A stretch of 56,895 nucleotides of DNA from an uncultured Lachnospiraceae bacterium. Lineage in GTDB: Bacteria; Bacillota; Clostridia; Lachnospirales; Lachnospiraceae. This document shows positions 22,469-30,431 of the stretch, piece by piece. The notes under the pieces were generated by a model. That model saw nothing but the letters and a program-made list of their open reading frames with translations, did no database searches and was not told the origin of the DNA. The stretch's first letter is position 1. Every line of letters starts with the position of its first letter. The stretch spans positions 1 to 56,895 of the forward strand of contig CANQVT010000011.1 of the NCBI GenBank assembly GCA_947627365.1, read 5' to 3'. Position numbers and translations under genes: made by a program.

Positions 22469-23373
22469 GCGGCTGTACGCTCTGCCCCAGAGCATGCGGC
22501 GCGGACCGTGAGAGCGGAAGGCGCGGCCGCTGTGGAGCGGATCAGGAAATCCGGGTTGCGCGGGCGGCGCTGCACATGTGGGAGGAGCCTTGCATATCAG
22601 GAGCGGAGGGCTCGGGAGCCGTTTTCTTTTCCGGCTGCCCGCTAGGCTGCATATACTGTCAGAACCGGAAAATTTCACGCGGAGAATCCGGTATGGTGAT
22701 CTCGACAGGGCGGCTTGCGGAGATCTTTCTGGAGCTTCAGCAGCAGAAGGCAAATAACATCAATCTTGTCACGGCCGGACATTTTCTGCCGCAGGTGATC
22801 GAGGCGCTCTTGCTGGCAAAAGGACAGGGGCTGAAGATTCCCGTGGTCTACAACAGCAGCGCCTATGAGAAGCCGGAGGCGCTGCGGCGATTGGACGGTC
22901 TGGTGGACGTCTACCTGCCGGATTTCAAGTATATCAGCTCAGAGCTGGCTGCAGCATATTCAAATGCCCCGGACTATCCGCAGGTTGCGGCTGCGGCGAT
23001 ACGGGAGATGGTGCGTCAGAGGCCGGAGCCCAGGTTTGATACAAGGGGGATCATGACCTCAGGCGTCATCGTGAGGCATCTGCTTCTTCCCGGCCATGTG
23101 CGTGAGGCAAAGCAGATCATAAGATATCTGCATGAAGAATACGGGAACAGAATCTACATCAGTATGATGAATCAATACACGCCGATGGAAGCTGTGGCGG
23201 GGGATCCGCTGCTTGGCCGACGCGTGACAAAGCGCGAATATGAGAGGCTGCTTGCATTTGCGGAGCAGCTCGGTGTGGAACAGGGATTTTATCAGGAGGG
23301 GGAGACTGCCAAGGAGAGCTTTATTCCGGAGTTTGGCTGTCAGGGTGTGCTCAAAGAGGAAGGCGTAAAATAG
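22465..23373 (+). CDS. Radical SAM protein, PflA/PflX-like
   Basis: A 302-residue radical-SAM enzyme. The 4Fe-4S motif CPLGCIYC gives C58, C62 and C65. An N-terminal set of cysteines in CTLCPRACGADRESG and GRCG resembles the extra cluster region of PflX-type putative pyruvate formate-lyase activating enzymes. The partial TIM barrel includes VTAGHFLPQVIEAL and VYLPDFKY. No glycyl-radical enzyme is nearby, so the substrate is open. It is the last gene of the aroK operon, before a terminator. Confidence 0.88.
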   Translation: MSGCTLCPRACGADRESGRRGRCGADQEIRVARAALHMWEEPCISGAEGSGAVFFSGCPLGCIYCQNRKISRGESGMVISTGRLAEIFLELQQQKANNINLVTAGHFLPQVIEALLLAKGQGLKIPVVYNSSAYEKPEALRRLDGLVDVYLPDFKYISSELAAAYSNAPDYPQVAAAAIREMVRQRPEPRFDTRGIMTSGVIVRHLLLPGHVREAKQIIRYLHEEYGNRIYISMMNQYTPMEAVAGDPLLGRRVTKREYERLLAFAEQLGVEQGFYQEGETAKESFIPEFGCQGVLKEEGVK

Positions 23374-23405
23374 CCCGTCAGTCACATAGACAGACGGGCT
23401 TTTTA
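23372..23405. terminator. Terminator between the convergent operons
   Basis: AGCCCGTC (23372-23379) pairs with GACGGGCT (23393-23400), followed by TTTTTAT. It serves the plus-strand operon and may partly serve the minus strand. Confidence 0.8.
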
Positions 23406-23434
23406 TAGCTGATATTGGCTGAGACAGTGGAAAA

Positions 23435-24577
23435 CTATGGAATAAAGCTGGCGTCGTCTTTGCTTTTCAAAGCGATTGTGCCAGTCTCCAGATATTCCTG
23501 CTTCAACCGGTTGTAATCTTCCTTGCGCTTCTGCAAGTATTCGTCGACGTTGTCCTTCGTGACATAATATCCGAAGCCAGGATAAGACGCTTTCCCGGAG
23601 ATAGTGTCGATTACGAAGTCTGCAAGCGCGTAGGTGCAGTGGTCGGTGTCGATATAGTTGCTGGGGTTCAGATTGATATCGCTGTATCCGTTGAAATCCC
23701 AGAAATTCGTAATCTGAGCAAGCTCACGCAGATAGTCCCAGAAATAGGTGCTCTCAAAGCGCGCCATGCCCGAGATAAATGTCGGAGTGAACCAGAATTC
23801 GAGCTCTACGCCCGCAGCGTCACATTCCGCCTTGATCTGACCTGCAATATCCAGACATTCATCATAATAATCAGCCTTTTGATTCTTCTTGAAAAGCCGG
23901 GCCATTCGCGCATCAAAATTCTTCAGTAGATTCTTTGCCAGAAAGCCGTCCCAGTCTGCGTCCCTGCGTGGATACAGATACTGCACATCCCGCTCGCCAC
24001 CGGTGAAATTTCGGGTGTAGACGGTTTTTCCGTTTTTCATTTCATCCCATATCTTTTGGAGTCCCTTGGTCACGTCAAGCGTCAGAAAATGGAGGTATTC
24101 CATCAGCTGCGGCTCATCCTTCCAGACAGCCGGTATCTGCATAATATCGGCATCGGAGTCGAAGGTCAGGCGTGAAACTTCATTTGCACTCAGGCTGATA
24201 ATGATTTTTTTTACGTCGGTATGCTTCAACAGAAAATCTACGATCAGCTTGTATTCCGTCATAGTGCCGTGATATTCAAAAAGATTGTAGTAGCGGTATC
24301 CGTCCATTTCCTGCATCTTTTCGGGATGAAAGGAGCCAGCCTTGGAGCCGCCCAGAATGTACGCGTCATATTGATCGCCGAAGTTCAGAATATGGTTGGC
24401 TTTGAAGACACGGTAATATACATTCACGCTGCCGATCTTGAAATCAACATCCGCGTAGTCTCCGGACTGGAACGTAAAATATCCGTATATGTCCGCGTAA
24501 TAATTCACTCCCATAATAAAGAGCAGCACTGCGAGGATAAACCCCAGCATTCCGAAGCACCATCTCTTATATCGCAT
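23435..24577 (-). CDS. SGNH/DltD-like membrane-anchored partner of the MBOAT acyltransferase
   Basis: A 380-residue protein with one N-terminal membrane anchor (residues 8-24), the rest probably extracellular. A GGSKAG element places a candidate nucleophile serine at S78, and IDTDHC near 310 supplies an Asp-His pair, an arrangement like SGNH/DltD/AlgX-type acyl-handling proteins. It is the last gene of a six-gene minus operon, 60 bases after the MBOAT gene, with GGAGG before its start. The expected role is receiving acyl groups from the MBOAT or transferring them to a surface polymer. The family is assigned from context plus two motifs, so an inactive relative is possible. Confidence 0.65.
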   Translation of the reverse strand: MRYKRWCFGMLGFILAVLLFIMGVNYYADIYGYFTFQSGDYADVDFKIGSVNVYYRVFKANHILNFGDQYDAYILGGSKAGSFHPEKMQEMDGYRYYNLFEYHGTMTEYKLIVDFLLKHTDVKKIIISLSANEVSRLTFDSDADIMQIPAVWKDEPQLMEYLHFLTLDVTKGLQKIWDEMKNGKTVYTRNFTGGERDVQYLYPRRDADWDGFLAKNLLKNFDARMARLFKKNQKADYYDECLDIAGQIKAECDAAGVELEFWFTPTFISGMARFESTYFWDYLRELAQITNFWDFNGYSDINLNPSNYIDTDHCTYALADFVIDTISGKASYPGFGYYVTKDNVDEYLQKRKEDYNRLKQEYLETGTIALKSKDDASFIP

Positions 24578-24637
24578 TTGTATTCCTCCATATCTCTGCG
24601 TATCCTGTATTCGCCTTGGCCGGAGCAGAATTCCGAT

Positions 24638-26071
24638 TTAAAATTGAAAGTAAAGGAACTGTACGACCTGATTCATTTTTGACAGGCAGATGGCAAGCAG
24701 AATTCCGGCGTATGCAAAATAAATCAGATTCGGTTTGAATTTCTCCGACATCGTCTTTGTGGTCGGCGCGAACCAGCAGATCAAAAGTCCGATAAATACG
24801 ATGATACCGTCTTTCTGGTGATGTGTCACAAAAAGGCAGATCCGCTGGAAGGCGTTCAGGATTCCTGACGAGAAAAATGCCGGGAAGCCGAACATGGCTT
24901 TGTACACAGTCCAGGTGTCCTGAAGATTGGAAGCCACGAAAATTACTCTGGTCAGGACGATAAAGAAGAAGGTCGTCGTGACGCCGATGAAATAAGGCGG
25001 TTCCTTCTTGTTGTAGCTTAAGTAGGCGGCAATACAGACCAGAATGCCGTTCATGATCCCCCAGATGATGAAATTCCAGCCGGCTCCGTGCCAGATGCCG
25101 GAGACAAGGAAGGTCACCATTGTGGCGACATAGTAGTTGCGCCATTTGTTTCCCTTGCGAAACACATTCTTAAATACGTAGGTTCCGAGAAAGCGGGAGA
25201 GCGTCATGTGTTGGCGTTGCCAGTACACCTGAAAGTTTCTCGCGCGGAACGGCGCGTTGAAGTTTTCCGGCAGGTGAATGTTGAACAGCAGCCCCAGGCC
25301 GATGGCCATATCCGTGTATCCGGACAGATCAAAGTAATAGGAAACCGAGTAGGCGATCGTGTAGAACCAGGATTCCAGCAAGGTGATGTTCGAATTGATA
25401 TGCGAATAAAAATCAGCCGCAGAATTGTTCAGCGGGTCTGCGAGCAGCATCTTTTTCGCACAGCCGATCGAGAATACGAAGATGCCCAGTGCGATATTGT
25501 TGTAATTGATCTTCATATTCCGGGTATCTTCAAACTGCGGCGCGATCTCCTTGTGATGGACGATTGGGCCGACGATCAGCTGTGGGAAGAAGGTGATAAA
25601 AAGCAGATAGTCCAGCACATGGTACTCCCTCGTCTCTCCGCGGTAGGAATCCACAAGAAACGCGATCAGCTGGAAAGTGAAGAACGAGATGCCGATCGGA
25701 AGCGCGATATTTTTCAGCACAAAGTCGGTTCCGGTCAGCGCGTTCAGATTTTCGACAAAGAAGTCATAGTATTTGTAGTATCCGAGCAAGGCTACGTTTC
25801 CGAGAACTCCGGCGGCCAGCAGCAGCCTGCGCTGCAGGCGGTTCTCATCGCCCTGCAGACGGCAGAGCGCCGAGCCGACGACGTAGTTCGCGAACACGCT
25901 TCCCATAAAAAAAGGAAAGAAATCCGGGCTTCCCTGCGAATAGAAAAACATGGAAGCCAGGATCAGCCATATTTTCGAGAGATAGTAAAACTTAAATTTA
26001 TTCAGGACGCCGTATCCGCCCGCGACGACGGGCAGGAACAGAAACAGGAACTTGTACGATGAAAATATCAT
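24638..26071 (-). CDS. MBOAT-family O-acyltransferase (AlgI/DltB-like)
   Basis: A 477-residue polytopic membrane protein. The start MIFSSYKFLFLFLPVV is typical of AlgI/DltB. The conserved segment YWQRQHMTLSRFLGTYVF and the catalytic histidine in SGIWHGAGWNFIIWGIMNG are intact. MBOAT proteins move an activated acyl group across the membrane for polymer O-acylation. It begins six bases after the ABC permease stop with GGGAG in the permease end, so it is coupled to the transporter genes rather than standing alone. Confidence 0.92.
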   Translation of the reverse strand: MIFSSYKFLFLFLPVVAGGYGVLNKFKFYYLSKIWLILASMFFYSQGSPDFFPFFMGSVFANYVVGSALCRLQGDENRLQRRLLLAAGVLGNVALLGYYKYYDFFVENLNALTGTDFVLKNIALPIGISFFTFQLIAFLVDSYRGETREYHVLDYLLFITFFPQLIVGPIVHHKEIAPQFEDTRNMKINYNNIALGIFVFSIGCAKKMLLADPLNNSAADFYSHINSNITLLESWFYTIAYSVSYYFDLSGYTDMAIGLGLLFNIHLPENFNAPFRARNFQVYWQRQHMTLSRFLGTYVFKNVFRKGNKWRNYYVATMVTFLVSGIWHGAGWNFIIWGIMNGILVCIAAYLSYNKKEPPYFIGVTTTFFFIVLTRVIFVASNLQDTWTVYKAMFGFPAFFSSGILNAFQRICLFVTHHQKDGIIVFIGLLICWFAPTTKTMSEKFKPNLIYFAYAGILLAICLSKMNQVVQFLYFQF

Positions 26072-26077
26072 ATGTGT

Positions 26078-26863
26078 TTACTCCCACGTTTTCCATTTAC
26101 TTGTGCGTTTCTCAAGAAAGCGGAACAGAACTTCCTCCATCAGCATCATGATGACGCCGAGGCTGATGATCGTGATCAGGGTGACTGAAGTGTTGGCCGT
26201 GCTGCGACCCACGCTCAGCACATAGCCGAGGCCCCTCGGAACACCGACCATCTCGGCGGCGATCACGACACGCCAGGCAAATCCGAGCCCAAGCTTAAAT
26301 CCGGAGACAATGTATGGAATGATGCTGGGAACGATACAGTGCACGATAACCTGCCAATGGCTGGCCTCCATCATGTGCATTACGTCGTACAGCTGCTGAT
26401 TTACATTCAGGACGCCCTGCAGGGAATTCACGATGATCGGAGACAGCGATCCCATCACGATGATAAAGATCGCGGCGTTGTTGCCGAGTCCAAACCACAG
26501 AATGGCGAGCGGCACCCAGGCGACTCCGGGGATCGGTGAGAAAAAGCGGATCACCGGATAGAGACAGTTGCGAAGCGTCGTGCTCATACCCATCAGGATC
26601 CCGAGCGGAAGTCCGATCGCTACCGCGATGCCGAAACCGATCAGAACACGCCGCATACTAACCCAGATATTGCTGAGAAGATAGCCGCTTTTGAGCATCT
26701 CGCTCAGCTCCCCCGCGACGACGTTCGGCATCGGCAGCAGCAGCTGCGCCGACTTTTGGTCAATACGGCCGAATATGCCGGTCTTTGAGGCGATGGTCCA
26801 TAGCAGGAGGATGCCGGCGATGCCGGCACACCCCTGTAAAAATTGAATGACATTCTTTTTCAT
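26078..26863 (-). CDS. ABC importer permease (SsuC/TauC/NrtB type)
   Basis: A 261-residue BPD-transporter inner-membrane component with six helices. The EAA motif region reads MMEASHWQVIVHCIVPSIIP, and GLGFAWRVVIAAEMVG matches the nitrate/sulfonate/taurine class. It works with the ATPase at 29493 and the binding protein at 26908. It is separated from the binding-protein gene by 44 bases containing a perfect palindrome (26867-26881) over the ribosome binding site. Confidence 0.93.
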   Translation of the reverse strand: MKKNVIQFLQGCAGIAGILLLWTIASKTGIFGRIDQKSAQLLLPMPNVVAGELSEMLKSGYLLSNIWVSMRRVLIGFGIAVAIGLPLGILMGMSTTLRNCLYPVIRFFSPIPGVAWVPLAILWFGLGNNAAIFIIVMGSLSPIIVNSLQGVLNVNQQLYDVMHMMEASHWQVIVHCIVPSIIPYIVSGFKLGLGFAWRVVIAAEMVGVPRGLGYVLSVGRSTANTSVTLITIISLGVIMMLMEEVLFRFLEKRTSKWKTWE

Positions 26864-26866
26864 TTG

Positions 26867-26881
26867 GAAAGGAGTCCTTTC
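26867..26881. repeat. Palindrome at the permease ribosome binding site
   Basis: GAAAGGA-G-TCCTTTC on the plus strand. On the transcript it contains the AAAGGA ribosome binding site, so folding could lower permease translation relative to the binding protein. Confidence 0.45.
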
Positions 26882-26907
26882 ATTTCTTGCTCGCTGTCCG
26901 TCGGATC

Positions 26908-27882
26908 TTACTCAACCGTGTAGAACAGATCCTCCTCGGCTGGAATCTCGTCAATGTAGCCGAGCTGCAGCGCCCAGTTAAGCGTCTCTACGGTCGCTTC
27001 CTTATCGATGTCGTAGGTGTAGTCGATACGCTCGCGCGCTGCGGCGATCGTCTCCTCGTCCATCTCGAGAACCTTGGCGAGCACGGCGTTGGCGCTCTCG
27101 TCCTCATTCAGGAAATCAACGGTAGCCTTGTAGCTGTCCAGGAACGCCTTCAGATCATCCAGGCGGTTGTCGATCATGTCCTGGCTTGCCGCCACCACGT
27201 TGACCGGATAGAACGCGTCGCTGCCGGTCTCTTCCTTAATCTCCTTCGGAGAATCGTAGAGCACGACGATGTCGTCGCCGTAGGTGGCCTCTGCCTCAGC
27301 CGCGAACGGCTCCCAGGTCATCATCGCGTCCACTTCCTTCGAAGCCATCAGAACGGTCGCCATATCGGCGGGCTTCATGCCGGGGATCAGTGTGAGATCC
27401 ATTTCCGGATCCAGACCTGCGTCGCCGAGGATCTTGCTGCGCAGGAGCGCGTCCGTCACGGTCGCGACACTCGGGGCTGCCACGGTATGTCCGGCAAGCT
27501 CCTCCACAGAGGTGATGCCGGTATCCTTGCGCGTCATTAGTACATGACCGCCGCCGTTCGCGGAGGCGACTACCTTCATCTCAACTCCCTTTGAAACCCA
27601 GGTCGCGACCGGGATCACGCCCACGATCGCGACGTCCAGCTCGCCTGCGGCAAATGCTTCCATAATCGCGGCGCCATCCGAGAACTGACTCACCTCTACC
27701 TGAAGATCGCCCTGGTTGAGCAGGCCGTTCTCAATCGCGACAAACGGGGTTGCTGTGCCGAGCGCGATGAGCGAACCGACTCGGATCGGGTCATTGCCCT
27801 CCGCCTGCGCGCTGAAACCGCAGCAGCCGAAAAGCATTGCGGAAGCCATTGCTATGCTTATGTTTCTTTTCCAGTTTTTCAT
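26908..27882 (-). CDS. ABC substrate-binding protein (SsuA/NMT1-THI5-like)
   Basis: A 324-residue exported binding protein. The sequence RVGSLIALGTATPFVAIENG, LDVAIVGVIPVATWV and the MTWEPFAAEAE segment match the SsuA/NMT1 class, which binds sulfonates, nitrate, thiamine precursors and aromatic or other organic acids. The signal peptide ends LFGCCGFSAQA, offering a weak lipobox (LFGC) or a signal peptidase I site. Start 27882 is chosen since AAAGGTGG is correctly spaced and one base separates it from the ligase stop. Ligand is not readable. Confidence 0.9.
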   Translation of the reverse strand: MKNWKRNISIAMASAMLFGCCGFSAQAEGNDPIRVGSLIALGTATPFVAIENGLLNQGDLQVEVSQFSDGAAIMEAFAAGELDVAIVGVIPVATWVSKGVEMKVVASANGGGHVLMTRKDTGITSVEELAGHTVAAPSVATVTDALLRSKILGDAGLDPEMDLTLIPGMKPADMATVLMASKEVDAMMTWEPFAAEAEATYGDDIVVLYDSPKEIKEETGSDAFYPVNVVAASQDMIDNRLDDLKAFLDSYKATVDFLNEDESANAVLAKVLEMDEETIAAARERIDYTYDIDKEATVETLNWALQLGYIDEIPAEEDLFYTVE

Positions 27883-27883
27883 T

Positions 27884-29455
27884 TTAATTTCCACCTTTCT
27901 TCATTTCCTTGAATATGTCGACGAGTTTCAAACGTTGGATCTTTCCATTGCCTCCCTTTGGAAGATCATCTATGAAAAACACCATACGCGGCACCTTGTA
28001 GGCCGCAAGGTGCATGGCACAGCAGTCTTTGACCTGCTCCGGCGTGAGGGAAGCACCCTCTCGCAGCTTGATGAAAGCGGCAACCTCCTCGCCATAGACA
28101 TCGTCCGGTACGCCGACCGTTGCAGCAAGCTCCACCTCGTCCATGCGATAGATCACTTCATCCACCTCGCGCGGGGAGAATTTCTCTCCGGCCCGGTTGA
28201 TCAGCTCCTTGATTCGCCCATCCAGGTACAGATAGCCATCTGCATCGAGATATCCGAGGTCTCCGGAGTGGAACCATTCGCCGGTGAATGCCTTTTTCGT
28301 TTCTTCTTCTTTTCTGAAATAACCTCTGGTGATATTCTCTCCTCGGATCAACACCTCGCCGGTCTGCCCGGCCGGGAGTTCATTTCCCTCCGGATCGACG
28401 ATCTTGATCTGGTTCCCGTAAGGCAATCCGACAGAACCTGGCTTTCGCACAAGAGGCGGCATCGGATTCGTCGTGATCTGACTCGCGCCCTCTGTAATGC
28501 CATAAGATTCAATGATCGGAACCTGGCAAATGCCCTCAAATTCTTCCAGCACAGCGACCGGGAGCGGAGAGGAGGCAGAGCGCGCAAATCTCAGTGAGCT
28601 CCAATCTTTATCTATCGGGATGCCGCGGGCCAGCAGGTGCGAGTACATGGTCGGAACGCCGCTGAACCAGGTCGCGCGGTATTTCTCCACATCTCCCCAA
28701 AAGTTCGTGACACTGAATTTTCCGCCGATCACGATCCTGCCGTCGGACACGAGCGGGGTAATCAAGGTGATCACCAGACCGTTGATGTGAAACCACGGGA
28801 GCACGCACAGCACAATGTCTTTCTCAGTCAGCTGATGGGCCTCTCGGATATGGTCGGCCTTTGAGAGCAGGTTCCGATAGCTCAGGATTACGCCCTTGGG
28901 GTGGCCGGTGGTCCCGGAGGTGTACAGCATCATGGCTGTATCGTCCGGCTGCTGAATGTATTCGGCGCCGTCCGGCTGCGGTATGCTTCCGGTATCCTCC
29001 GGATGGAGGCTACTGCGCTCGTCGCCCGCCGCTGCCTGCCTCGCAATTTTCAACAGGGTACAGCCGTTCTCCAAGGTGATGCGCTCTTTCTTGTACTGCG
29101 CCGGGATGCGGTCGATGAATGTCTCAGACAGTAGAATGGCGGCAGCCTGCGAATCGCTGATCAGGTAGTCCAGCTCTGCAGCCTTGAGTCCTGTGTTGAC
29201 CGGAACCACAATTCCGCCAAACTCAGTAATACCAAAAAAAGAGACAGCGAATTCTACGCTGTTTTCCATCATTAAAATGATAGCGTCTTCGGCGGAAAGC
29301 CCCTGCGCCTTCAGCATCTGCGCCATCGCTTCCGTCTCTGCCTTCAACTGAAGGCAGGTCAGAGACTTCCCGGTCCTCGCGCAGGAAATCAGCTGCCTGT
29401 CCCCGAAGAGCGCTGCTTTCTTCGCGAGTATCTTCTGAAAGGTATTTTCGTTCAT
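27884..29455 (-). CDS. Adenylate-forming acid-CoA ligase
   Basis: A 523-residue ANL-superfamily enzyme that activates a carboxylic acid as the acyl-AMP and usually the CoA thioester. Motifs are MMLYTSGTTGHPKGVILSY (P-loop), ESYGITEGASQ, FHSGDLGYLDADGYLYLDGR and the C-terminal catalytic lysine in GGNGKIQRLKL. It resembles medium-chain, aromatic or carnitine-type CoA ligases; no peptidyl carrier domain is attached. Its position inside the importer operon, directly before the binding-protein gene, suggests it activates the imported acid. Confidence 0.9.
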   Translation of the reverse strand: MNENTFQKILAKKAALFGDRQLISCARTGKSLTCLQLKAETEAMAQMLKAQGLSAEDAIILMMENSVEFAVSFFGITEFGGIVVPVNTGLKAAELDYLISDSQAAAILLSETFIDRIPAQYKKERITLENGCTLLKIARQAAAGDERSSLHPEDTGSIPQPDGAEYIQQPDDTAMMLYTSGTTGHPKGVILSYRNLLSKADHIREAHQLTEKDIVLCVLPWFHINGLVITLITPLVSDGRIVIGGKFSVTNFWGDVEKYRATWFSGVPTMYSHLLARGIPIDKDWSSLRFARSASSPLPVAVLEEFEGICQVPIIESYGITEGASQITTNPMPPLVRKPGSVGLPYGNQIKIVDPEGNELPAGQTGEVLIRGENITRGYFRKEEETKKAFTGEWFHSGDLGYLDADGYLYLDGRIKELINRAGEKFSPREVDEVIYRMDEVELAATVGVPDDVYGEEVAAFIKLREGASLTPEQVKDCCAMHLAAYKVPRMVFFIDDLPKGGNGKIQRLKLVDIFKEMKKGGN

Positions 29456-29492
29456 AATGGATCGTTAGCCCCTTATTTTGTACTAATGTGTT

Positions 29493-30257
29493 TTATATAT
29501 GATCTGTCATGCCGGATGTGGTAAGGCTCAGAATATGATCACGCACCGCGATAAATTCCTTGCTTACTCTGTCGCGCGGCCGCGGCAGATCCACCGATAT
29601 AATCTCTTGTATTCTGGCCGGTGAGCCGGTAAATACGACAATCCGGTCGGAGAGAAATACGGCTTCCTCGCTGTCGTGTGTCACCAGGCATGTCGTAAAC
29701 TCCTTCTTCGCACACAGCTGGACGAGCTCGCTTTGCAGCTTCATCTTTGTATAGGAATCCAGCGCCCCGAACGGCTCATCCATGAGCAGGATCTTCGGAT
29801 TCATGACAAGAGCCCGCGCGATTGCCACACGCTGCTTCATTCCCCCGGAAAGCTGGTGCGGGTACGACTTCTCGAATCCCTGAAGGCCAATCATCTCGAT
29901 CGCCCACTTTACCTTGCGGTCGATGTACTCTTTGTCCCTGCCGGCCATCTTCAGCCCCATCGCGATATTTTTCTCCACGGTCTGCCATGGAAACAATACG
30001 TAATCCTGAAAGACCATCATGCGGTCGCTCTCCGGCTTCTTCACAGGCACTCCGTCTACTTCTACGCTGCCGCTCTCTGGTGTCAGAAGCCCGGCAATGA
30101 TGCGCAGCAGGGTGGATTTACCACATCCGGACGGCCCAACGAAAGAGATAAATTCCTGATTGGAGATCTCCAGCGAGATATCGTTCAGTATGGCCAGCTG
30201 GCCGGAGTTATCATTCTTGGTAAATGATTTGGTAATATTTTTTATGATAATAGCCAT
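29493..30257 (-). CDS. ABC importer ATP-binding protein (SsuB/TauB/NrtD type)
   Basis: A 254-residue ATPase with Walker [10 protein letters not shown], signature [15 protein letters not shown], Walker [13 protein letters not shown] and the H-loop [15 protein letters not shown], matching the sulfonate/nitrate/taurine class. First gene of the six-gene minus operon, 37 bases before the ligase. Confidence 0.94.
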
Positions 30258-30402: not shown

Positions 30403-30431
30403 ATTTTAGGATAGACATATACATTTGTCAA
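30403..30431 (-). promoter_or_regulatory. Promoter of the six-gene minus operon
   Basis: On the minus strand TTGACA (30431-30426), exactly 17 bases, TAAAAT (30408-30403). It is divergent from the methyltransferase promoter 50 bases away. Confidence 0.75.

Follow-up and report, generated by a model that had tools for sequence, protein, structure and literature searches.

A stretch of 56,895 nucleotides from an uncultured Lachnospiraceae bacterium (GCA_947627365.1, contig CANQVT010000011.1; hereafter the window) carries six consecutive minus-strand genes encoding an ABC importer ATPase, an acyl-coenzyme A (CoA) ligase, a substrate-binding protein, a permease, an MBOAT acyltransferase and an SGNH-like protein (Table 1), an operon that probably encodes a pathway by which a salvaged organic acid decorates the cell exterior. 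An earlier sequence-only reading had spaced these genes by 37, 1, 44, 6 and 60 bases with the ligase set within the transporter genes. Recomputation gave exactly these gaps and the open reading frames confirmed the order ATPase-ligase-binding protein-permease, with the ATG start used for the binding protein and an alternative GTG start at 27894. The upstream promoter it proposed, TTGACA-17-TAAAAT, is present and is the best of 11 promoter-like sites, but the prediction is weak because about 6.8 such sites (standard deviation 3.0) are expected in shuffled sequence. A stem-loop (-21.5 kcal/mol on the minus strand) lies just 3′ of the sixth gene, before a converging neighbour gene; it was found by separate folding and was not listed by the general terminator-site scan. 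The site scan found no terminator-like site in the 6-base gap between the permease and MBOAT genes. The source genome (G000) comprises 2.8 Mb in 104 contigs, is 84.5% complete and encodes five MBOATs.

Table 1. Genes and signals of the six-gene operon, with positions in the window and the matches on which each assignment draws.
Feature	Position	Strand	Evidence
ABC importer ATPase, NitT/TauT (nitrate/sulfonate/taurine) type	29493..30257	-	Pfam ABC_tran, E 5e-36; best NCBIfam models SaoA and NtrCD, both below cut-off
Acyl-CoA ligase (adenylate-forming)	27884..29455	-	Pfam AMP-binding and AMP-binding_C; nearest solved relatives oxalyl-CoA synthetases; motifs YTSGTTGHPKG and GGNGKIQ
Substrate-binding protein, SsuA/NMT1 superfamily, probable lipoprotein	26908..27882	-	NMT1_2, E 4e-19; SsuA_fam 105 bits against a cut-off of 163.5; AlphaFold pLDDT 82.9
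Importer permease	26078..26863	-	BPD_transp_1, E 6e-27
MBOAT acyltransferase with C-terminal FXYXXF	24638..26071	-	Pfam MBOAT, E 2e-27; best solved relative DltB
FLYFQF, C-terminal FXYXXF hexapeptide of the MBOAT; Tyr predicted acyl carrier	24641..24658	-	Motif match; role from PMC12148441
Membrane-anchored SGNH-like partner, predicted final acyltransferase	23435..24577	-	GGSK (Ser78) and His313 invariant in 19/19; moderate structure model
Promoter-like site TTGACA-17-TAAAAT	30403..30431	-	11/12 matches
Stem-loop containing T/A tracts; may terminate both of the converging units	23372..23408 (about)	-	Fold z -4.45 (minus), -6.80 (plus)

The gene set and its order are conserved between genera. 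Ligases at least 55% identical to that of the window occur at nine loci (G000, G043, G029, G009, Robinsoniella peoriensis, L070 from a Lachnospiraceae genome of water deer rumen, L071 from Candidatus Merdiplasma, G325 and G446), and in eight of the nine the whole six-gene set is contiguous and in the same order. The ninth, in G029 (L067), is split over two contig ends, with one contig ending inside the permease gene and the MBOAT and sixth genes lying at the end of another. This count excludes 16 ligase loci at 44% identity or less and G439 (48-52%), the cassette of which is without an MBOAT. Intergenic gaps across the eight contiguous loci range from -10 to 123 bases, the order being kept while the spacers vary. 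The co-occurrence of these families in related genomes, raised in the sequence-only reading, therefore holds in one direction, the importer-ligase genes being linked to the MBOAT-SGNH pair at eight of nine loci and the ninth being split by contig ends; the converse fails, since 12 of the 22 MBOAT-subfamily loci have no adjoining importer and ligase.

Wider surveys gave a similar distribution. A search of 144 relatives placed the ligase (E ≤ 1e-120) in four genomes (G000, G009, G029 and G043) and the binding protein (E ≤ 1e-30) in the same four. A ligase scan with one genome per species returned 22 loci, of which six had 56-98% identity and 16 no more than 44%, with an ABC ATPase match near the ligase in three contigs of the latter group (L073, L074 and L086). 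In a survey of 397 family genomes the ligase (E ≤ 1e-130) was present in five (G000, G279, G325, G446 and G439) and the MBOAT subfamily (E ≤ 1e-110) in nine, both genes occurring in four. The probability of this co-occurrence by chance (hypergeometric, 397 genomes) was 6e-7, or 2e-5 without the window's genome, a rough figure in that relatedness is ignored. In the open-licence literature, judged by titles and abstract openings, no description of this gene set was found.

When the six genes were compared with those of G009 and G029, the ratio of nonsynonymous to synonymous substitution (dN/dS) was 0.02-0.15 in 11 of 12 cases; saturation of synonymous sites precluded the calculation for the remaining one, the sixth gene against G029. 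The low dN/dS, together with the order kept in distant genera, indicates that the gene set is more than a product of chance, and the conserved order led us to reject a chance neighbourhood. The binding protein is 99% identical to its G009 counterpart, the MBOAT and the permease 97%, the ATPase 92%, the ligase 84% and the SGNH-like protein 69%; against R. peoriensis the products of five genes show 68-77% identity and that of the sixth gene 42%. The fastest-changing gene is thus that of the SGNH-like partner, the protein that should recognise the acceptor. Synonymous divergence from L047 was lowest for the binding protein gene (0.15), followed by the permease (0.43), MBOAT (0.54), ligase (0.92), ATPase (1.05) and SGNH-like (1.48) genes, with 0.76 and 0.97 in the flanking genes; such unevenness along the operon suggests that its middle part has recombined. 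A response regulator and a histidine kinase, assigned by Pfam in R. peoriensis, lie directly after the operon both there (L069:15062-17261) and in Merdiplasma (L071:14947-17110), and because these genes adjoin it the operon may respond to an external signal in these two organisms.

The MBOAT is assigned to its family with 96.8 bits against a Pfam cut-off of 27, and His328 (in GIWHGA) and His288 are invariant in all 12 aligned MBOATs. A tree was built from 20 of the 22 subfamily loci, the subfamily being defined at about 52% identity or more and G032 and G034 being left out as cut by contig ends, with six outgroup MBOATs. All 26 proteins, including two others from the source genome, carry the C-terminal FXYXXF, and the MBOATs of the nine importer-ligase loci form one clade (support 100/100). 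According to PMC12148441, MBOATs with this C-terminal motif are argued to take their acyl group from CoA, and a mechanism in which the acyl group passes from acyl-CoA to the Tyr and on to the SGNH protein has been shown for PatA/PatB. Because the window's MBOAT ends in FLYFQF and has the invariant His, acyl-CoA would be the expected donor and a CoA ligase a fitting supplier. The sequence-only reading had pointed out that no carrier is encoded and that the MBOAT would need either a CoA ester or an unlinked carrier; the six genes are indeed without a carrier and the FXYXXF motif points to acyl-CoA as the answer.

This bears on a rival explanation in which an unlinked acyl carrier protein, and not CoA, is charged by the ligase, which would make the operon a distant Dlt pathway. 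DltB is the closest solved structure to the MBOAT, and DltA, like the ligase here, is an adenylate-forming enzyme. The best matches of the ligase are nevertheless CoA ligases, the gaps of at most 123 bases in the eight contiguous loci leave no room for a carrier gene, the source genome has no DltD match and the MBOAT has its own FXYXXF, such that we regard a distant Dlt pathway as highly improbable. The Dlt system as such was rejected for this operon, with no DltC-type carrier, DltX or DltD among the six genes and no DltD match in G000 (a carrier and DltX were not searched for elsewhere). Elsewhere in the source genome, another MBOAT (L063, G000:C7:12000-31000) is followed by a DHHW-family protein, a family matched in 36 of 60 genomes searched, and L064 (G000:C31) carries two further MBOATs, separated by about 4 kb, together with uncharacterised proteins both ahead of the pair and between its members.

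For the sixth protein, the SGNH-like designation of the sequence-only reading stands as far as the Ser/His pattern is concerned, while membership was not shown by sequence or profile comparison. Ser78 (in GGSK) and His313 are invariant in all 19 homologues aligned from the 22 loci (left out were G198, in which an ambiguous base splits the gene, and G032 and G045, where the gene lies past the end of the contig), and both are putatively catalytic. The Asp of DxxH is present in five of the 19 (the window, G043, G009, G029 and G479) and is Asn in the other 14. No Pfam or NCBIfam match to the protein was obtained at E 0.001, the best Pfam match among 17 homologues reached only E 0.0047 (DUF2334, in four of the 17) and a PDB sequence search gave nothing better than E 0.33. 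By profile, the sixth gene matched neither as a DHHW nor as a DltD homologue. The AlphaFold model (pLDDT 68.7, with 104 of 380 residues below 50) has an N-terminal helix followed by alternating strands and helices, in which Ser78 would follow the first strand and His313 precede a late helix, an order that we take to be that of DltD-like proteins. The protein is therefore termed SGNH-like only, a label drawn from the GGSK...H pattern and a moderate model.

The importer consists of an SsuA/NMT1 binding protein, one permease and one ATPase, which is a NitT/TauT-type set. Among the NCBIfam models listed none reached its cut-off for the three proteins (best shown for the ATPase, 25 against 187), and the binding protein matched TauA (6ssy) with E 1e-6. 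The best PDB matches of the ligase were the oxalyl-CoA synthetases 6qjz (E 1.3e-106), 5ie0 (E 1.9e-106) and 8aff, followed by MatB (4fuq). Of the oxalate ligands of AAE3, which we take to be His214, Ser289 and His319, the first two are kept, while the position of His319 is Ser (seven) or Ala (two) in all nine ligases compared, a set that includes G439 and leaves out G043. Likewise, VPTFYTR and LERYG of MatB correspond to VPTMYSH and IESYG in the ligase of the window, without the two arginines that presumably bind the free carboxylate. Since these assumed specificity residues are not all kept, a plain oxalyl- or malonyl-CoA synthetase was lowered as a candidate. FHINGL, FARSAS and ESYGITEG are identical in the nine ligases and GVPT(M/I)YS is kept, the next residue being His in eight; with these motifs kept, it is plausible that one acid serves all loci. 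The sequences fit a short anionic acid. Sulfoacetate is a guess at the imported acid; according to PMC11659671 it is among the products excreted when sulfoquinovose is broken down, and sulfoacetyl-CoA occurs as an intermediate.

In the salvage-and-decorate pathway, which we consider likely, the NitT/TauT-type importer would take up a small organic acid that the ligase would convert to an acyl-CoA. The MBOAT would then carry the acyl group from CoA across the membrane to the Tyr in its C-terminal FLYFQF, and the anchored SGNH-like protein would receive it on Ser78 and hand it on, beyond the membrane, to an acceptor that is probably an envelope polymer. We infer import, CoA activation and the Tyr shuttle by analogy, and the identities of acid and acceptor are guessed. 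The idea of a shared pathway in the sequence-only reading gains support at the level of genome comparison, in the eight contiguous loci and the MBOAT clade, with the function itself predicted. What is new here is the six-gene unit conserved across genera, the answer on the carrier and the exchange of supply enzymes.

This exchange became apparent from the 22 loci of the MBOAT subfamily. Besides the nine with importer and ligase, 11 have an acyl-CoA carboxyltransferase (PCCB/MmdA-like) next upstream, with a gap of 13 to 348 bases to the MBOAT gene; one of these loci (G034) is split over two contigs and in two (G032 and G045) the contig ends short of the sixth gene. By sequence, the carboxyltransferase resembles propionyl-CoA carboxylase beta subunits (1vrg, E 1.5e-161), the mmdA model remaining below cut-off. 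The residue that we assume to set the preference for acetyl over propionyl groups is Ile (GGAYI), which would fit malonyl-CoA, an argument that is weak because GGAYI is likewise present in 1vrg, which was deposited as a propionyl-CoA carboxylase. The MBOATs of the carboxyltransferase loci lie around the importer-ligase clade and are not resolved as one clade themselves, and the tree would be compatible with one change of supply. An accD over cut-off was found in eight of 18 genomes, including five of the 11 carboxyltransferase-MBOAT genomes (G019, G020, G022, G032 and G034) and none of the other six, so a role of the carboxyltransferase as general acetyl-CoA carboxylase is left open. No accD over the curated cut-off was recorded in nine of the 18 (G043, G009, G029, G017, G024, G045, G370, G198 and G243; six at least 92% complete), G198 being without any match; this puts their fatty acid supply in question unless the search missed the gene. 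In G325 the match was just below cut-off.

A second form of exchange is seen in a single genome, G439 (L103), in which genes for an ATPase, a ligase (48% identity), a binding protein and a permease are followed by one for a hexapeptide acyltransferase. The neighbouring genes encode a third hexapeptide protein, a Gfo/Idh dehydrogenase, a nucleotide-sugar dehydrogenase, a DegT aminotransferase and a glycosyltransferase, and the three hexapeptide proteins match LpxD-/NeuD-type models, one of them over cut-off (PRK00892, 265 against 207 bits). G439 was not among the carriers of the subfamily MBOAT in the 397-genome survey. We read the cassette as the same acyl-CoA supply, which would here feed N-acylation of an amino sugar. 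One open reading frame of 440 residues (L103:8430-9752) joins a hexapeptide acyltransferase domain at its start to the importer ATPase and is a possible gene fusion joining uptake and N-acylation. An acyl-CoA supply for the MBOAT fits these observations, since a carboxyltransferase replaces the importer and ligase in 11 genomes and the G439 cassette sits among hexapeptide acyltransferases. The G439 arrangement also suggests that importer-ligase cassettes could help to annotate N-acyl sugars in surface-sugar clusters.

The surface-sugar cluster around the G439 cassette likewise argues against an acceptor that is a small molecule or an extracellular protein instead of an envelope polymer, as would apply in detoxification or in secretion of an acylated compound. 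Such an acceptor would agree with there being no polymer-synthesis gene seen adjoining the operon and with the rapid change of the SGNH-like partner, which may mean that different species have different acceptors. The MBOAT-SGNH pairs in PMC12148441 act on polymers, and with the G439 cluster this makes a small or proteinaceous acceptor rather improbable.

Several findings weigh against the salvage-and-decorate pathway. No MBOAT match was found near the 16 distant ligases, an absence that is soft in that only the longest frames were kept. One subfamily MBOAT (G155) has neither supply enzyme adjoining, another (G479) lies on a contig that ends before the upstream gene is seen, and in G018 a carboxyltransferase stands at a contig end with no close MBOAT found in that genome. 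The hhalign comparison of the sixth protein gave a probability of only 0.8% for DltD (19 columns, E 0.066) and 0.6% for DHHW. Further, no substrate was predicted with confidence and the ligase could serve catabolism. In a rival explanation the MBOAT-SGNH pair performs ordinary O-acetylation with acetyl-CoA and the importer and ligase feed central metabolism with a carbon or sulfur source, merely sharing the operon. In keeping with this, the MBOAT-SGNH pairs without DltX listed in PMC12148441 are acetyltransferases, and the subfamily occurs without adjoining importer and ligase at the 12 loci noted above. Mere sharing of an operon is nevertheless unlikely given the order kept at eight of nine loci, the ninth being split, the single clade formed by their MBOATs and the lack of a catabolic gene in the set; moreover, the MBOAT also neighbours an acyl-CoA enzyme at 11 of the 12 remaining loci.

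If the salvage-and-decorate pathway is correct, the operon would represent an MBOAT-SGNH system with its own acyl-group import, making a gut bacterium's surface dependent on an environmental acid, and would offer a concrete route to non-acetyl surface modifications. It would also give a testable rule, namely that the gene adjoining a subfamily MBOAT tells which acyl-CoA that MBOAT receives. A speculative extension, to which we give little credence at present, is that the decorating group is an anionic short gut acid (malonyl-, oxalyl- or sulfoacetyl-like) adding negative surface charge from a diet or host acid, with both the supply module (importer and ligase or carboxyltransferase) and the acyltransferase (MBOAT-SGNH or hexapeptide N-acyltransferase) being exchangeable. 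On this speculative view relatives would produce an equivalent group themselves, the carboxyltransferase yielding malonyl-CoA, of which sulfoacetyl-CoA is a close mimic.

Decoration of the surface with an external compound has a precedent in lic-type choline decoration, in which import and activation are followed by transfer to a surface glycan. The likeness lies in the uptake, activation and placing of such a compound on the surface, while the families differ throughout and acyl-CoA here takes the place of CDP-choline. The oxalyl-CoA synthetases (AAE3 5ie0, 6qjz and Pcs60 8aff) are the nearest solved relatives of the ligase but differ from it at the position of the presumed AAE3 ligand His319. 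The Dlt system (DltA-DltB-DltC-DltD-DltX) likewise combines an adenylate-forming enzyme, an MBOAT and a serine partner in one operon; in contrast, the enzyme here is of the CoA-ligase type, the operon is without a carrier gene, DltX or a DltD family match, and an importer is added. A further related system is the O-acetylation of peptidoglycan by PatA/PatB, an MBOAT-SGNH pair using acetyl-CoA, which, as set out in PMC12148441, shares an MBOAT with a conserved His and FXYXXF, a separate anchored serine partner and an expected acyl-CoA donor. Unlike PatA/PatB, the pair described here has a partner whose best PDB sequence match was no better than E 0.33, and comes with an importer and an acyl-CoA ligase of its own.

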